Origin: an uncultured Pelagibacteraceae bacterium
GTDB taxonomy: Bacteria; Pseudomonadota; Alphaproteobacteria; Pelagibacterales; Pelagibacteraceae
Assembly (NCBI GenBank): GCA_902609685.1
Contig: CACLSR010000005.1
Span: 1-64,000, forward strand
Direction: 5' to 3'
Length of the DNA: 64,000 bases
Part shown: positions 3,760 to 48,641 of the stretch, piece after piece
How positions within the stretch are numbered: the first letter of the stretch is position 1
How the letters are laid out: each line of letters starts with the position of its first letter
Made by a program: the position numbers and the translations under genes
The notes under the pieces: generated by a model
What the model was told of the DNA's origin: nothing
Seen by the model: only the letters and a program-made list of their open reading frames with translations
Database searches by the model: none

Positions 3760-6041
3760 CTTTTTTTGTAATCAATTACATCTGCTGAATAAGCTGCAAT
3801 AGAAGCTAAATTTAATATATCAGAAGTTGATGATCTTAAAGGAGCTATCTCGATTGGTAAACCTAAACCAACTAATAAAGGTCCAATTACTTTTGCTCTA
3901 CTCATTGACTTTATCATTTTATATGAAATTGCTGCACTATGTTGGCTGGGCATAATTAAAACATTTGAGTTACCAACTATTTCTGAAAATGGATAAAGTT
4001 CTTTGTACATCTCTTCTAAAGCAACATCTGGTTGCATTTCACCATCAAATTTAAAATCAACTTTATCATTTTTTAAAATTTCAACAGCATCACTTAGTCT
4101 TTTTGTTCTATCTGTAGCTGGCTCCCCAAAAGTAGAGTGAGATAAAAAAGCAACTTTTGGATCAAAACCAAATAATTTTGCAACCCTTGCTGCTGATTTT
4201 GCCATTTCAGCTAGTTGTTTGGCATCAGGGTATTCTATAACTGATGTGTCACAAATAAATATTGTTTTTCCTCTATTTACAACCAGGTTTAACCCGAACA
4301 TAATTTCCCCAGGTCTTGGATCAACAACTTTAATAATTTTTTCTAGTGAAGATGAGTATCTTCTTGTGTTCCCAGTTATCATTGCATCTGCATCCTGACA
4401 CGCAACCATGCACGAAGCCCAAATCACTCTATCATTTCTTATAAGTCTATCACAATCCCATTCTAACATTCCCTTTTCTCTTTGAAGTTTTTTAAATAAA
4501 TATTTTACATATTTTTCTCTTTTAGCTGTGTCTTTTGAGTTTACAATTTCAATATCAAAATTTTCATTATAACCAATTTTTTTTATTTGATTTTTAATTA
4601 GCTCCTCTTTTCCAACTAAGATGGGTATTCCTAAGTCAGAGTTTTTAAAAGCTATAGCAGCTTTAAGTGTATTTTCATCCTCACCATCAGCAAAAACAAC
4701 TTTTTTTTGTTTTTTCTTTATATAACTATTTACACCTTGCATAATTGTTACAGTTGGATCTAATCTTTGTTTAAGTTGGTCCTTATAGATTTCAAAATTA
4801 TTAATTTTTTTTCTTGCTACACCAGTTTCAATAGCAGCTTTTGCAACTGCAGCCGGTATAACACTAATTAATCTTGGATCAAATGTTGATGGAATTATAT
4901 AATCCTTTCCATAGTGTGGTCTTTCACCTCCCATGGCAGCTATAACTTCGTCTGGCACATCTTCTTTAGCTAATTTTGCTATCGCATGTGCAGCTGCAAT
5001 TTTCATCTCTTCATTAATTGTTTTTGATCGTACATCTAATGCACCTCTAAAAATATATGGAAACCCTATTAAATTGTTTACTTGATTAGGATAATCTGAT
5101 CTTCCAGTCGCTATAATTGCATCATCTCTAACCTCCTCAATTTCTTCAGGTATAATTTCTGGGTCAGGGTTAGCACATGCAAATATAATTGGATTTTTTG
5201 CCATTTTTTTAACCATGCCTTTAGTTAACGCTCCTTTCGCAGATAAGCCTAAAAAAACATCTGCATTAGTAATAGCATCATCTAGAGTTCTATCTTTTGT
5301 TTCAATTGCATGACTTGATTTCCATTGGTTCAAATTATCTCGACCTCTGTAAATGACCCCTGTCCTGTCTACCATTGTAATATTTTTTTGGGGTACACCA
5401 GTCTTTTTAAATAAATTAGCGCAAGCCATAGCCGAAGCTCCGGCACCATTAACAACTATTTTAACTTTATCAATTTTTTTTTTACTAATGTCCAAAGCAT
5501 TAATAAGTGCTGCAGTTGTGATAATTGCAGTTCCATGCTGATCATCGTGAAACACAGGTATATCAAGTATTTCTTTAAGCTTTTCTTCAATAATAAAACA
5601 ATCAGGAGCAGCAATATCTTCAAGATTTATACCACCAAAACTTGGAGCAAAATTTTTTATACTATTTATGATTTCATCTGGATTTTCGGACTCTATCTCT
5701 AAATCAATAGAGTCAATATCAGCAAATCTTTTAAATAAAACAGCCTTACCTTCCATCACCGGTTTAGATGCTAACGCACCTAAATTTCCCATGCCCAAAA
5801 TTGCTGAGCCATTACTAATTACTGCAACAAGGTTTCCTTTACTTGTATAATCAAACGCAGCCTCAGGATTATCACTGATTGCTCTTACAGGAGCAGCTAC
5901 ACCAGGCGAGTATGCTAAAGCCAGATCTCTTTTTGTCGTCATATTTTTTGAGGAAGATATTTCAATCTTGCCTGGCTTTTTATCTTTATGAAAATCTAAA
6001 GCCTCTTTATCTGTGTAATGATCAATTTTTGTTTTTTTCAT
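3756..6041 (-). CDS. maeB: NADP-dependent malic enzyme with C-terminal phosphotransacetylase-like domain
   Basis: 761 aa; DLALAYSPGVAAPV, FHDDQHGTAI, VVNGAGASA; C-terminal PTA domain (VFADGEDENTLKAA). Confidence 0.93.
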   Translation of the reverse strand: MKKTKIDHYTDKEALDFHKDKKPGKIEISSSKNMTTKRDLALAYSPGVAAPVRAISDNPEAAFDYTSKGNLVAVISNGSAILGMGNLGALASKPVMEGKAVLFKRFADIDSIDLEIESENPDEIINSIKNFAPSFGGINLEDIAAPDCFIIEEKLKEILDIPVFHDDQHGTAIITTAALINALDISKKKIDKVKIVVNGAGASAMACANLFKKTGVPQKNITMVDRTGVIYRGRDNLNQWKSSHAIETKDRTLDDAITNADVFLGLSAKGALTKGMVKKMAKNPIIFACANPDPEIIPEEIEEVRDDAIIATGRSDYPNQVNNLIGFPYIFRGALDVRSKTINEEMKIAAAHAIAKLAKEDVPDEVIAAMGGERPHYGKDYIIPSTFDPRLISVIPAAVAKAAIETGVARKKINNFEIYKDQLKQRLDPTVTIMQGVNSYIKKKQKKVVFADGEDENTLKAAIAFKNSDLGIPILVGKEELIKNQIKKIGYNENFDIEIVNSKDTAKREKYVKYLFKKLQREKGMLEWDCDRLIRNDRVIWASCMVACQDADAMITGNTRRYSSSLEKIIKVVDPRPGEIMFGLNLVVNRGKTIFICDTSVIEYPDAKQLAEMAKSAARVAKLFGFDPKVAFLSHSTFGEPATDRTKRLSDAVEILKNDKVDFKFDGEMQPDVALEEMYKELYPFSEIVGNSNVLIMPSQHSAAISYKMIKSMSRAKVIGPLLVGLGLPIEIAPLRSSTSDILNLASIAAYSADVIDYKKS

Positions 6042-11766: not shown

Positions 11767-12204
11767 ATGTCAGATACAATTGAACAACAATGTTTATCTA
11801 AAGGGGTAAAATTAACTGACCAGAGGCGAATTATTGCTAAGGTAATTTCAGAGTCAAAAGCCGCTTATGGTGAGTCTGATCATCCAGATGTTGATGAGTT
11901 ATATAGTCGTGTATCAAAAGTTGATCCAAAAATAAGCATAGCCACAGTTTATAGGACAGTTAAGCTTTTCGAAGAGGCAGGAATTTTAACTAAACATGAT
12001 TTTAAAGGTGGTAAGGCTAGATATGAAGCAATGATAGAGAGTCATCATGATCATTTGATTGATATAAAATCTGGTGAAATAATTGAATTTGTGGATGAAG
12101 AAATTGAAGAGTTGCAAAAAAAAGTTGCAAAAAAATATGGTTATAAGTTAGTAGACCATAAACTTGAGTTATATGGTGTCAAAGTAAACTCAAAAGATGA
12201 ATAA
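11767..12204 (+). CDS. fur: Fur/Mur-family metal regulator
   Basis: LTDQRRIIAKVI...SIATVYRTVKLFEEAGI...HHDHLID; tsaB-fur-miaB context. Confidence 0.9.
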   Translation: MSDTIEQQCLSKGVKLTDQRRIIAKVISESKAAYGESDHPDVDELYSRVSKVDPKISIATVYRTVKLFEEAGILTKHDFKGGKARYEAMIESHHDHLIDIKSGEIIEFVDEEIEELQKKVAKKYGYKLVDHKLELYGVKVNSKDE

Positions 12205-26362: not shown

Positions 26363-26862
26363 TATTTAAATAACCCCACTTTTAAATTGTCCGCTGAATA
26401 AATTTTTTTTTCGTCTGCTAATAATATCCCATTAGCCAAACCAACAGTTGTACCACCAGGAGACATAATTTTTTTCATATCGATTTCATATTTGACTAAT
26501 TTAACATTTTGTAAAACTTCTCCTGTAAATTTTACTGTCCCAACGCCTAAGGCTCTGCCTTTTCCAGGATTTCCAATCCAGCCTAAATAAAATCCTACGA
26601 GTTGCCACATAGCATCAAGTCCAAGACATCCTGGCATCACAGGATCTTCTTTAAAATGACAATCAAAAAACCAAAGGTCTTTCTTTATGTCTAATTCAGC
26701 TTTTAAAGAGCCTTTTTTAAAAGCACCATCCTTTTCATTAATTTCTGTAATTCTATCAAACATCAACATTGGTGGAAGTGGTAATTTTGCATTCCCTGGA
26801 CCAAAAAGACCTCCGTTTCCGCAACTTATAAGTTCTTCATAAGAATAGGAGTTTTTTTTCAT
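26362..26862 (-). CDS. fabA: 3-hydroxydecanoyl-ACP dehydratase
   Basis: [38 protein letters not shown]...[22 protein letters not shown]; track start 27036 overlaps the divergent irr-like gene, so ATG at 26862 preferred. Confidence 0.94.
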
Positions 26863-26913
26863 AAAATAGATCACCTTAATACTTGATTTTAACCCATTAT
26901 AATATACATAAAG

Positions 26914-26930
26914 TTTAGAATTATTATAAT
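26914..26930. promoter_or_regulatory. Putative Irr/Fur-family operator (ICE-like) overlapping the -10 of the irr-like gene
   Basis: TTTAGAA-TTA-TTATAAT; near-identical to the katG box at 27420-27436; TATAAT at 26925-26930. Confidence 0.6.
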
Positions 26931-26935
26931 TTACA

Positions 26936-27364
26936 ATGTTAAAAAATAGCGAATTTGTTAACAAATTAAGAAATTCTGGTCTAAGACCAACTAAACAACG
27001 ACTTAAAATTTGTGAAGTCTTATTTAATAGAGACAAAACGTTTCACTTTACCATTAATGATTTAGCAAAAAACATTTCAGAAAATTTTAATGAAAAAATA
27101 TCTTTAGCTACAATTTATAACACAGTTCATGCTTTTAAAGATAAAGGATATCTAAAAGAGATTACGATCAGTAGCGATAAAAGTTATTTTGATACAAATA
27201 TTACCAAACATCATCATTTTTATGATGAGGACACAAATTTACTTATAGATTGTAATGATAACGAAATTGGAAAAGTTAATATCAAAAATAATATTACAGG
27301 AAAAAAAATTAGTTCTGTGGAAGTGTTAGTAAGAGTTGCGAGTGATACTCAAAATCAGAATTAA
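26936..27364 (+). CDS. irr: Irr-like Fur-family transcriptional regulator
   Basis: [19 protein letters not shown]...[22 protein letters not shown]...HHHFYDEDT; next to fabA as in many alphaproteobacteria. Confidence 0.8.
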
Positions 27365-27388
27365 AAAAAACTTCCCTTCTAAATTTAT

Positions 27389-27436
27389 ATTATAATCGTT
27401 CTAAACTGTTGACATTTAGTTTAGAACTATTATAAA
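27389..27436. promoter_or_regulatory. katG promoter with two ICE-like boxes and a dyad bracketing the -35
   Basis: TTGACA (27409-27414), 16 nt spacer, TATAAA (27431-27436); TTCTAAAC (27399-27406) / GTTTAGAA (27419-27426) inverted repeat; TTTAGAA-CTA-TTATAAA (27420-27436). Confidence 0.65.
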
Positions 27437-27474
27437 TTAATAATTCTAATAACCATGGGGGAAATACAAAAATT

Positions 27475-29712
27475 ATGAGTACTGAAAATTTCAAAAATAA
27501 GTCTTTTAAAGCCAATCAAATGAGCAAATGTCCTTTTACTGGCGCAGGAACACCTGCAAAGTTTTCTGCAGGAAGAGGTCAAACAGTAAGAGACTTTTGG
27601 CCAAATAGTATAAATCTTAAAATTCTTAGTCAGCATTCAAATTTATCTAACCCTATGGATAAAAAGTTTAATTATGCAAAAGAATTTAAAAAACTTAATT
27701 ACAAAGCATTAAAAAAAGATTTAAAAAAATTAATGACAGACTCCCAAGAGTGGTGGCCAGCAGATTATGGTCATTATGGTCCATTATTTATTAGATTAGC
27801 TTGGCATGCCGCAGGTACTTACAGAACTGGTGATGGTAGAGGTGGAGCAGGAACAGGTAATCAAAGATTTGCGCCACTTAATTCTTGGCCAGATAACGTA
27901 AACTTAGATAAAGCCAGATTACTTTTATGGCCTATTAAAAAGAAATATGGAAGAAAAATTTCATGGGCAGATTTATTCATCCTTGTTGGAAATGTGGCCT
28001 TAGACTCAATGGGTTTTAAAACTTTTGGTTTTGGAGCTGGCAGAACTGATATTTGGGAACCAGAAGATGATATTTATTGGGGTTCAGAAAAAGAAATGTT
28101 AGGTGTGGAACGATATAGCGGAAAAAGAGATTTAGAACAGCCATTAGGAGCTTCACATATGGGTTTAATTTATGTAAATCCGCAAGGTCCTGATGCTAAT
28201 CCAGATCCAAAACTAGCAGCGCATGATATTAGAGAGACATTTGGTAGAATGGCTATGAATGACTATGAGACAGCAGCATTAGTCGCTGGAGGACATACGT
28301 TTGGAAAATCTCATGGTGCAGCATCAGAGTCGTATAAAGGACCGGATCCTGAAGCTTCAAGACTTCAAGACCAGTCAACAGGATGGAATAGTGGATATAA
28401 ATCTGGAAAAGGTGTTGATACAATAAGTAGTGGTATTGAGGGCGCTTGGACTCAAAATCCAATTCAATGGGATATGGGTTACTTGGATTGTTTATATGGA
28501 CATGAGTGGGAGCTTACAAAAAGCCCAGCTGGTGCTCATCAATGGACTCCGAAGAAAAATGGGCAAGAGATTAAAATGGTTCCTGATGCACATCAAAAAG
28601 GTGTGCTTCATCCACCAATGATGCAAACAACCGACATATCGATGAAAGTTGACCCTAGTTATGGACCTATCACTAAACATTTTCATCAAAATCCAAAAGA
28701 GTTTCACGATGCTTTTGCGAGAGCATGGTTTAAATTAACTCACAGGGATATGGGACCAAGAGTTTGCTATCTCGGTAGTGAGGTTCCAAAAGAACAATTA
28801 ATTTGGCAGGATCCAATTGATAGGCCTAAATACAAACTTAAATCAAAGGATGTTAAAGATTTAAAAAGTAAAATCTCTAAATCAAAAATATCAATTTCAG
28901 ATTTAGTTTCTACTGCATGGGCTTCAGCATCTACGTTCAGAGGCTCTGATAAAAGAGGTGGTGCTAATGGTGCGAGAATAATGTTGGAACCACAAAAAAA
29001 TTGGAAAGTGAACAATCCAAAAAAATTATCTGCTGTAATTAAAGCTTTAGAAAAAATTAAAAGCAAATTCGATAGTAAAAAGAAAAGTGTTACAATGGCA
29101 GATTTAATTGTACTAGCTGGTGGTGTTGGTATCGAAATGGCTGCAAAAAAAGCTGGCTATAAAGTTCAAGTTCCATTTTCAGCAGGAAGAGGAGATGCAA
29201 GACAAGATCAGACTGATGTTAACTCATTTGGTCTTTTAGAACCACAAGCAGATGGTTTTAGAAATTATCTAAATGGTGGAGCTTCAAATGTTTCTGCAGA
29301 GGAAAAACTGGTTGATAAGGCTCAATTGATGGGTTTAACAGCTCCAGAAATGACTGCACTTGTAGGTGGAATGAGAGTATTAAATACAAACTTTGATGGC
29401 TCGAAACATGGAGTTTTTACTAACAGACCTGGTTCTCTTACTAACGATTATTTCATAAATCTTTTAGACATGAATACGACTTGGAAAGAGGAAGATAAAT
29501 CTGAACAAACATTTATTGGTAAAGATAGAAAAACTCAAAAAACTAAATGGAAGGCGACAAGAGTTGATTTAATTTTTGGTTCAAATTCTCAACTAAGAGC
29601 TTTAGCGGAAGTTTATGCATGTGAAGATTCGGGTGATAAATTTGTTAAAGATTTTATCGCAGCATGGGTAAAAGTTATGAATTCTGATCGATTTGATTTG
29701 AAATTAAACTAA
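27475..29712 (+). CDS. katG: Catalase-peroxidase
   Basis: KCPFTG..., [38 protein letters not shown]. Confidence 0.97.
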
Positions 29713-29736
29713 TTCTATAAAACAGGACAAAAAAAT

Positions 29737-30333
29737 ATGGGAACAGCAAATTTTGAGGACTTCTACGAAGTTCCTAATCTTAATTTTGATATATCAAAGT
29801 TGAGAAATGATTTGGATAAAGTTTTAAAAGCTAAAAAGTTTAACTCTCCAGGGGTTACTCACTTCGGAGCAATACCATTAAATCAAATCCCAAATGATAG
29901 AAGTTCTATCGAGGGAAATAATATTAGAGGAAAATATTGGACAATTGCCGATGAAACTGGAAAAGAAGTTTCTCGAGATGTTGATATAGATGAGTCAAAA
30001 TATACTCAATTGGTTCCTGAATTTGAAAATACTTATTTTAAAGAAGTTTACGACACTTTAAGTAAAAGGTTTAAACTAGGTAGAGTAAGATTATTATTAA
30101 AAGAGCCAAGATCGACATTAAGCTGGCATAAAGATCCTGAATGTAGACTGCATGTGCCCATCATAACTAATAAGGGCTGTTCAATGGTAATTGAAAATGT
30201 AGCAAAACATCTTCCAGCTGATGGTAAGGTATGGATAACAAATAATACAAAATATCATAATTTTTTTAATGGTGGAGAACAGGCTAGAGTACACCTAGTT
30301 GCTTGTGTGCTTGATAGTCCGTTTAAAAAATAA
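29737..30333 (+). CDS. Aspartyl/asparaginyl beta-hydroxylase-like (Fe(II)/2OG dioxygenase) protein
   Basis: SWHKDPECRLHVPI (HxD) and ARVHLVACV distal His/Arg motif. Confidence 0.65.
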   Translation: MGTANFEDFYEVPNLNFDISKLRNDLDKVLKAKKFNSPGVTHFGAIPLNQIPNDRSSIEGNNIRGKYWTIADETGKEVSRDVDIDESKYTQLVPEFENTYFKEVYDTLSKRFKLGRVRLLLKEPRSTLSWHKDPECRLHVPIITNKGCSMVIENVAKHLPADGKVWITNNTKYHNFFNGGEQARVHLVACVLDSPFKK

Positions 30334-30575
30334 TGGAATTAACAACCGGCATATTCAAAGCTGCTGGACAGATTTACACGAATAATAGAGGTTCAATTTT
30401 AAGAACCATTATTTATACAATTGGTCATTTTGCTATAGCTATAACTGTTTTAATGTTTGTTGCTGATGTCAGCTTTATGATAGCACTAACAGACGCAATA
30501 GTTGAACCAATAGCTAATTCTATATGGTATTTTATTTTAGATAAGTGGTGGGCGAGTAAATCAAAAAACTCTTAA
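30333..30575 (+). CDS. DUF2061-like small membrane protein
   Basis: RGSILRTIIYTIGHFAIAITVLMFVAD...EPIANSIWYFILDKWW pattern; overlaps the preceding stop. Confidence 0.7.
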   Translation: MELTTGIFKAAGQIYTNNRGSILRTIIYTIGHFAIAITVLMFVADVSFMIALTDAIVEPIANSIWYFILDKWWASKSKNS

Positions 30576-46943: not shown

Positions 46944-48641
46944 ATGGAATTAAGTAAAATTAAAAGTTTAGTAGAACTTTTTTTCACGAAGTATAAGGAG
47001 TTAAACTCTACTTCTAATAAACCATTTTTAAAGTGGTTAAAGGATAATAAGAAAGATTTTCTTACTTGGAAACAAGTTGAAAGAAATATTCAAATTTTAT
47101 CTGAATATTTAAGAAAAAATTTATCTAAAGGAGATAGGTGCATTTTATTATCTGAAAATCGACCTGAATGGCTTATTTCTGATATAGCCATAATGAACGC
47201 TGGTGGGGTAACAGTTCCTTTATTTACAACTTACTCTGACAAAGATTATGAATATATCATTAATGATTGTAATCCAAAAATTTGTATTGTCTCAAATTAT
47301 ACTCAATTAAAAAAAATAGATAAATTCATTTCAGATAAAATAAAAGTTTTATCTATAGAAAATATAGATAAACAAATTGATAGTATAGAAAATATCTTTG
47401 AAAGATTTTCTAAAGAAAAAATTTTAGATCATTTAAGCTTTAACAAAAATATTGAAAGAAAAGATCTAGCTTGTATCATTTACACATCAGGAACAACTGG
47501 TAATCCTAAAGGTGTAATGCTGAGTCATGGGGGTATTTTATCTAATTGTGAGGGTGCACAAGAAATTTTGAATTCGCTTGTTAAAGATAGTGAACCTGTT
47601 TTTTTGACTTGGCTACCTTTATCTCACTCATATGAACATGCTGTTCAATTTGTACAAATCACATTAGGAGCAAAAATTTATTATGCTGAAAGTTTAGAAA
47701 AATTATTATCTAATATGTCAGTTGCTAAACCAACTATAATGACTGCTGTGCCAAGATTTTATCAAAATTTGTATAGCAAGATTTCGATTAATTTTTCAAA
47801 ACAAACAGGTCTCAAGAAAAAATTAATATCTTCGACGATTTTGCTCGGAATAAAAAAACTAAATAATGAGAATATGAGCTTCAGAGAAAAAATACTAAAT
47901 TATTTATGTGAAAAATTAGTAAGACAAAAAATCAAAAATCAGTTTGGGGGAAATTTAAAGGCTTTTGTTTCTGGTGGGGGAGCGTTAGATCAAAAAATTG
48001 GTGAATTTTTGAATTCTATCGGATTGCCAACTTTACAAGGTTATGGCCTAACAGAAGCATCCCCAGTAGTAAGTTGCAATATACCTGAAAAAATCAAGAT
48101 TGATACAGTTGGACCTCCTTTTAAAACTAATGAGGTGAAGATTGCACAGGATGGTGAAATTCTGGTCAAAGGCGAAAATGTAATGCTTGGTTACTGGAAC
48201 ATGAAAAAAGAAACAGACGATATACTTAAAAATGGTTGGTTACACACAGGAGATATAGGTGAAATTACAAAAGAGGGAAATTTGAAAATTACTGACAGAA
48301 AAAAAGAAATTATTGTAAATTCTGGTGGTGATAACATTTCACCCTCGAAAATTGAAAATTTATTGTGTCTTGACGACAAAATTAAACAAAGTTTTGTTTA
48401 TGGAGACAAAAAAACTTATTTAGTTGCTTTAATTGTAAGTGATAGTGAAAAAAATAAAAAAGAAATTGAATTATATATAGATGATCTAAATAAAAACTTA
48501 TCTCTTGTTGAAAGAGTAAAAAAAATAAAATTAATTAATGAAGAATTTACAATTGAAAATGGAATGTTAACACCAACTTTAAAACTAAAAAGAAAAAAAA
48601 TTTTAGAAAAATATAAAGAAGATTTAGAAAAACTTTATTAA
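46944..48641 (+). CDS. Long-chain acyl-CoA synthetase (AMP-binding)
   Basis: LACIIYTSGTTGNPKGVMLSH; QGYGLTEASPVVS; GWLHTGDIGE. Confidence 0.9.
   Translation: MELSKIKSLVELFFTKYKELNSTSNKPFLKWLKDNKKDFLTWKQVERNIQILSEYLRKNLSKGDRCILLSENRPEWLISDIAIMNAGGVTVPLFTTYSDKDYEYIINDCNPKICIVSNYTQLKKIDKFISDKIKVLSIENIDKQIDSIENIFERFSKEKILDHLSFNKNIERKDLACIIYTSGTTGNPKGVMLSHGGILSNCEGAQEILNSLVKDSEPVFLTWLPLSHSYEHAVQFVQITLGAKIYYAESLEKLLSNMSVAKPTIMTAVPRFYQNLYSKISINFSKQTGLKKKLISSTILLGIKKLNNENMSFREKILNYLCEKLVRQKIKNQFGGNLKAFVSGGGALDQKIGEFLNSIGLPTLQGYGLTEASPVVSCNIPEKIKIDTVGPPFKTNEVKIAQDGEILVKGENVMLGYWNMKKETDDILKNGWLHTGDIGEITKEGNLKITDRKKEIIVNSGGDNISPSKIENLLCLDDKIKQSFVYGDKKTYLVALIVSDSEKNKKEIELYIDDLNKNLSLVERVKKIKLINEEFTIENGMLTPTLKLKRKKILEKYKEDLEKLY

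Follow-up and report, generated by a model that had tools for sequence, protein, structure and literature searches.

The irr-katG locus

The window, that is, the whole stretch of 64,000 nucleotides analysed here, belongs to SAR11 (Pelagibacteraceae) and carries the gene of a Fur-superfamily regulator between a divergently transcribed fabA and a downstream katG, with operator-like boxes in front of both the regulator gene and katG. The features concerned are the following:

11767-12204: fur (fur proper), the second Fur-family gene
26365..26862, minus strand: fabA, 3-hydroxyacyl-ACP dehydratase/isomerase (PF07977 and TIGR01749 above cut-off), divergent neighbour of irr
26912-26933, plus strand: putative irr operator, 22-mer AGTTTAGAATTATTATAATTTA, with core TTTAGAATTATTATAAT at 26914-26930; 17.8 bits
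26936..27364, plus strand: irr, Fur-superfamily regulator classed as a divergent Irr, 142 aa (PF01475, 4e-21)
27389..27405, minus strand: putative upstream katG operator, an inverted copy reading TTTAGAACGATTATAAT on the minus strand; 14.6 bits
27409-27414, plus strand: katG -35, TTGACA, between both katG operators
27418-27439, plus strand: putative downstream katG operator, 22-mer AGTTTAGAACTATTATAAATTA, with core TTTAGAACTATTATAAA at 27420-27436; 18.9 bits
27475..29712, plus strand: katG, catalase-peroxidase, 745 aa (TIGR00198 and PRK15061 above cut-off)
29737..30333, plus strand: Asp/Asn beta-hydroxylase-like gene (PF05118), which follows katG in relatives of the same katG type (synteny)
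30333..30575, plus strand: DUF2061 small membrane protein (PF09834), the end of the katG cassette (synteny)

The first-pass annotation had taken the regulator for an Irr-like member of the Fur family, and the comparison with curated subfamilies agrees with this reading, the product scoring 130.5 bits against NF045678 IrrA (cut-off 150) and 122.3 bits against NF045677 Irr (cut-off 170), with PerRA as the next-best subfamily at 60 bits. Since Irr is clearly the best subfamily and both scores remain below their cut-offs, the protein is described as a divergent Irr. The neighbourhood supports this orthology, an arrangement with fabA divergent upstream and a rubrerythrin gene (rbr) downstream being common to many Irr loci at the class level, and, as judged from its sequence, the gene is most probably the SAR11 orthologue of irr.

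Bacillus PerR, which acts on perR, katA, ahpC and mrgA, is likewise a Fur-superfamily repressor with catalase and peroxiredoxin targets and sometimes with itself as a target, and all five of its ligand positions (H37, D85, H91, H93 and D104) are present in SAR11 Irr, being H37, D86, H92, H94 and D105 in the window protein and kept in 70/70 aligned SAR11 sequences. The same five ligands are found in 28/28 canonical Irr proteins taken as a control set; they are therefore not diagnostic of PerR versus Irr and were dropped as a sign of PerR function. SAR11 Irr differs from PerR in that the CxxC structural zinc site is absent, the positions of PerR C96/C99 being mostly D or N and T/N/E/S, and in that its sequence groups with Irr. 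The HxH haem-binding motif is present as HHH at 92-94, both flanking histidines being found in 70/70 aligned SAR11 Irr, and the Cys-Pro haem regulatory motif is missing, CP occurring in 0/75 SAR11 Irr sequences. This N-terminal motif belongs to the B. japonicum type only and is not universal among Irr proteins; it is scarce in the canonical set as well (3/28).

A peroxide regulator beside katG, or controlling it, is also known from OxyR-katG systems, but OxyR is a LysR-type activator, and the sole LysR protein detected in the source genome best matches GcvA and not OxyR. Since, in addition, the only Fur-family genes of this genome are fur and irr, Irr becomes the obvious candidate for a peroxide regulator. 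In the window, fur is located some 15 kb ahead of irr, and a similar distance (15-17 kb) is seen in many family genomes.

Operators and promoter geometry

The 22-mers at irr and katG differ in only 2/22 positions and both overlap a -10. That of irr covers TATAAT at 26925-26930 and ends 2 bp before the ATG, while that of katG fills the spacer between the -35 and the -10 and covers TATAAA at 27431-27436. These two properties had already been pointed out at first pass, as had the resemblance to the ICE, TTTAGAA-N3-TTCTAAA, which holds to the extent that the left half TTTAGAA is perfect at both sites and the right half agrees in 5/7 (irr) and 6/7 (katG) positions, i.e. 12/14 to 13/14 in all. Moreover, the second, weaker katG box was recovered, immediately ahead of the -35, as an inverted copy which departs from the 22-mer at 2 positions, and the dyad described around TTGACA proved to be a single inverted repeat (27385-27407/27418-27440), whose arms of 23 nt are 87% complementary according to the repeat search. 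The two katG boxes flank the -35 and lie 31 bp apart, centre to centre.

Among 160 irr-linked promoters, 73 carry two good boxes and 87 do not. In the two-box promoters the commonest spacing is 31 bp (59/73) and the orientation is mostly inverted (67/73); furthermore, TTGAC stands 11 bp ahead of the downstream box in 84 promoters, which is the commonest distance and also that of the window. As 31 bp corresponds to three helical turns, the spacing suggests two dimers placed on one DNA face, which would clamp the -35/-10 region. The inverted arms, located just past the irr stop codon, might alternatively be read as an RNA hairpin serving as irr terminator or attenuator. This reading was rejected as very improbable: the same sequence stands single at the irr start, more than half of the irr-linked promoters do without the pair, it is the box sequence and not the pairing which is conserved, the -35 and -10 sit within the inverted pair, and no terminator-like site was found there.

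At the irr start, the ATG is situated 6 nt past the -10 TATAAT and is not preceded by a Shine-Dalgarno sequence (26925-26938), so that the irr mRNA may be leaderless. A second conserved element at 26881-26906, made up of TACTTGATTT followed by ATAATATA, occurs in nearly every SAR11 fabA-irr spacer and may represent the fabA promoter or another operator.

Operator conservation and the presence of irr

The search for the motif over the whole 1.19-Mb source genome gave a divided answer. With up to 2 mismatches the 22-mer is found only at the three window boxes; with up to 3 mismatches there are 4 sites, the three boxes at 0, 0 and 2 mismatches and a fourth with 3 mismatches at 47691, within an ORF, against 3 sites for the reversed control. 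Looser matching, by contrast, does not rise above the control, since, when 2 mismatches were allowed, the 17-bp core gave 133 sites in the whole genome and its reversed control 134, i.e. no enrichment. For the strict core TTTAGAAYNRTTATAA, the source genome gave 3 matches (0 in the control) and 147 family genomes gave 149, of which 123 are at the irr/peroxidase locus; the 26 found elsewhere, most of which fell within ORFs when examined, are not above the 51 obtained with the reversed control in the same genomes. As looser searches stay at control level, the real evidence for the putative operator is its positional conservation and not its abundance.

This conservation was assessed with a weight matrix built solely from the boxes of irr promoters in genus g1, with which the promoters of the peroxidase genes were then scored, a promoter passing when it exceeded the 99% dinucleotide-shuffle score. 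In irr-containing family genomes, 75/75 katG/rbr promoters passed (median 19.4 bits), including 40 of a distant KatG type and 18 of rubrerythrin, while in irr-less genomes only 1/25 katG promoters did (median 2.8 bits). A second set of 80 named loci from Pelagibacteraceae/Pelagibacterales, several of them labelled Ca. Pelagibacter and largely non-overlapping with the first set, showed the box at all 60 rbr and 17 katG promoters, and among peroxiredoxin genes it was present at 7/7 irr-adjacent copies and at 0/24 paralogues located elsewhere. In L274, where the slot behind irr holds a peroxiredoxin gene, the upstream box (about 3946-3962) is a perfect ICE palindrome, TTTAGAATAGTTCTAAA. The loose matches at control level are what would be expected from chance resemblance in an AT-rich genome; nevertheless, chance is refuted by conservation at the katG, rbr and peroxiredoxin promoters, since the box keeps its position in more than 150 promoters, in front of genes from three unrelated families, and is lost along with irr, which makes this explanation practically negligible.

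The loss of irr can be followed directly at eight irr-less loci where the gene is deleted or broken and fabA and katG have become adjacent (L087, L082, L084, L086, L088-L090 and L076, L087 and L082 belonging to genomes G131 and G006, respectively). The box is eroded in seven of them and intact in L082, and L087 retains an irr remnant interrupted by a stop codon. The plain counts of genomes with and without irr overstate independence: the KatG tree yields 2 independent irr losses, neither running against the expected direction, and further events, additional to this count, are represented by genera g5, g9 and g12, which have no irr.

These contrasts also bear on the possibility that Fur or some other regulator recognises the operator, whose link with irr would be one of mere neighbourhood. 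Fur-family boxes resemble one another, fur is present in nearly all irr-containing genomes, and, by eye, the operator also closely matches a PerR-type 7-1-7 box. However, operator conservation tracks irr and not fur; in genomes which keep fur and katG and have lost irr, such as G001, G009, G012, G022, G039, G040, G048, G049, G060 and G073, the box is eroded or absent, and strict-core matches away from the irr locus do not exceed the control. We therefore regard a reading by Fur or another regulator as improbable.

The comparison with relatives bore out that an ICE-type operator is kept at both promoters, the box at the irr start being conserved within the genus. The autoregulation put forward at first pass stands for part of the lineages only: nearly all the g1 loci examined carry the irr-promoter box, as do 14/20 genomes of g4, but the count in g2 is 0/20, and the box is rare outside the order. 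Hence, autoregulation is apparently a lineage-specific trait, the putative operator of the peroxidase gene being the constant part.

Enzyme exchange behind irr

The slot behind irr holds katG (of two divergent types), rubrerythrin or peroxiredoxin, so the claim that the switch is directed at peroxide defence was upheld, and the irr-katG pair is, on comparative grounds, one form of a wider arrangement. Among the 147 family genomes, many of them incomplete so that any single absence is weak, katG was found in 95, rubrerythrin in 22 and both in 0, a mutual exclusion with a Fisher p of 3e-12 when genomes are counted as independent (kinship uncorrected). Even KatG proteins which share only about 55% identity with that of the window are encoded directly behind irr, and all the rubrerythrin genes found in family genomes start approximately 50-115 bp behind irr (110 bp in G026). 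Of the 80 named loci, 60 have rubrerythrin in the slot and 17 have katG; in L274 the slot is occupied by a peroxiredoxin of the AhpC/TSA type, and six further irr-adjacent peroxiredoxins came from a genus-wide search.

In fact, whole cassettes are exchanged, consisting either of katG with the Asp/Asn hydroxylase-like and DUF2061 genes or of rubrerythrin with a CCG Fe-S protein and DUF3501. The alternative cassettes lie between irr and an SH3-like gene, as can be seen by comparing the window (27475-30575) with L220 (4033-6437). A tree of 162 Irr proteins, built on 142 columns and weakly resolved, requires at least 12 slot changes by parsimony; for rubrerythrin, at least 5 changes are imposed by its well-supported branches. 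The window KatG shares 95-97% identity with the KatG of lineages in which Irr identity reaches only 61-64%, and outside its own near-identical group the window Irr is nearest (74-80%) to Irr of the rubrerythrin type; this mismatch between the identities of KatG and Irr makes recombination between irr and katG likely.

Beyond SAR11, the sister family and much of the class carry rubrerythrin directly behind irr, 80-87% identical to the SAR11 rubrerythrin. An ICE with up to 3 mismatches was found in 28/34 class-wide gaps between irr and the peroxidase gene, where shuffled sequences gave an expectation of 0.87, and 2 of these 34 loci (L374 and L388) carry katG instead. Many class members possess the exact ICE palindrome, whereas in SAR11 the right half-site has changed from TTCTAA to TTATAA, which doubles as the -10 and distinguishes the SAR11 operator from the ICE of Rhizobiales and Rhodobacter. 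Given the class-wide adjacency of irr and rbr with an ICE between them, the irr-ICE-rubrerythrin combination looks ancestral, katG and peroxiredoxin appearing as replacements.

Probable mechanism and signal of the proposed switch

Taken together, these comparisons make it highly probable that Irr acts as a local repressor, through ICE-type operators, on a single neighbouring gene for peroxide removal, which has been exchanged repeatedly with the operator kept; direct control of katG by Irr is considered about as probable. According to this model, Irr would bind the operators (TTTAGAA-N2-ATTATAA), which overlap the -10 and, in the case of katG, flank the -35. Once bound, it would prevent access of RNA polymerase to the adjacent peroxide-scavenging gene, an occlusion which is suggested by the position of the operators, and in the genus of the window it would likewise block its own promoter. 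Peroxide, or a metal or haem change coupled to it, would then alter Irr and relieve repression. The working unit would thus consist of irr and one adjacent peroxidase gene, katG in this case and rubrerythrin or peroxiredoxin in sister lineages. What the comparison itself provides is evidence that the operator is conserved and linked to the presence of irr, that the genes have been exchanged and that hardly any other sites exist.

Several observations run against an Irr repressor. The irr-less G006 (L082) keeps an intact box, the contrast between genomes with and without irr comes down to a small number of events (2 independent pairs in the katG phylogeny and, in addition, the genera lacking irr), g2 shows no irr autoregulation, and Fur (11767-12204) could bind related sequences. 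Furthermore, irr mRNA did not track iron in Pelagibacter, neither this mRNA nor the Irr protein showing a clear iron response in Ca. P. ubique (PMC2864753).

As regards the signal, the classic Irr logic would be that Irr, when starved of haem or iron, represses a neighbour making an iron protein, which is wasteful at low iron, and that sufficiency relieves this repression. Orthology with Irr, the ICE and the retained HxH motif speak for it, as does the dependence of KatG on haem and of rubrerythrin on non-haem iron; moreover, characterised Irr, in its haem-free form, binds the ICE and, when iron is low, represses the rubrerythrin-like mbfA together with bfr (PMC7762939, PMC3413700), binding without haem at low iron being the classic behaviour (PMC7762939). 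Nevertheless, the slot and its operator are also found with a peroxiredoxin, a thiol enzyme with no metal, the Cys-Pro motif is lacking from SAR11 Irr, and the rbr mRNA of Ca. P. ubique (SAR11_0399) rose 1.57-fold on iron limitation (P 0.025; PMC2864753). The classic logic is consequently seen as a possible, though less probable, account of the locus. The rise, instead of a fall, of rbr mRNA in iron-starved Pelagibacter leans to a PerR-like role, as does the fact that the three slot enzymes have only the removal of peroxide in common. That this operator also stands before the gene of a peroxiredoxin, which contains no metal, is likewise easier to reconcile with a peroxide signal than with iron economy. 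Peroxide is thus slightly favoured over haem or iron as the main signal. In R. sphaeroides, irr mutants are peroxide-resistant, the two genes with an Irr box, mbfA and ccpA, form part of the defence against oxidative stress, and the Irr box over the mbfA start site was taken as repression (PMC3413700).

SAR11 bacteria dominate the surface ocean and control their peroxide defence with almost no regulators; this locus offers a likely regulator, its operator and its target, and the slot behind irr explains why KatG, rubrerythrin or peroxiredoxin is found at one position across strains. With an operator kept through enzyme swaps and lost along with irr, it also represents a natural experiment on Irr sensing, in which one operator serving haem, non-haem-iron and metal-free enzymes argues for peroxide and not for iron economy. 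A far more speculative extension, which we consider rather unlikely, is that Irr was ancestrally an alphaproteobacterial peroxide switch, that is, a local repressor with one ICE and an adjacent peroxide-scavenging gene, as in the class-wide irr-ICE-rubrerythrin loci, that in SAR11 KatG or peroxiredoxin came to fill the slot while the operator stayed as it was, and that the global haem/iron role of the rhizobial protein would be a later elaboration.

Proposed targets of Irr in SAR11

The Irr/ICE systems of Rhizobiales and Rhodobacter (mbfA, bfr, ccpA) share with SAR11 an Irr-family protein, a TTTAGAA-N3-TTCTAAA element over the promoter and rubrerythrin-like or peroxidase targets. They differ in that rhizobial Irr is a global iron regulator with dispersed targets, whereas the constant putative target in SAR11 is the neighbouring peroxidase, no further target class standing out family-wide. 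No description of KatG as a direct Irr target was found in the literature searched. In the source genome, single-mismatch matches elsewhere are mostly intragenic and provide no convincing further target, and a match recurring away from the locus in genus g4, TTTAGAACTATTATAA, was rejected as a target because it falls within ORFs. A near-perfect operator does appear about 40 bp before a 1-Cys peroxiredoxin gene in two genera (L401, 1036-1075; L412, 980-1022). This gene also has a good box in G106, G014, G034 and G113, a minority of the irr-containing genomes overall, and is a possible lineage-specific second target.
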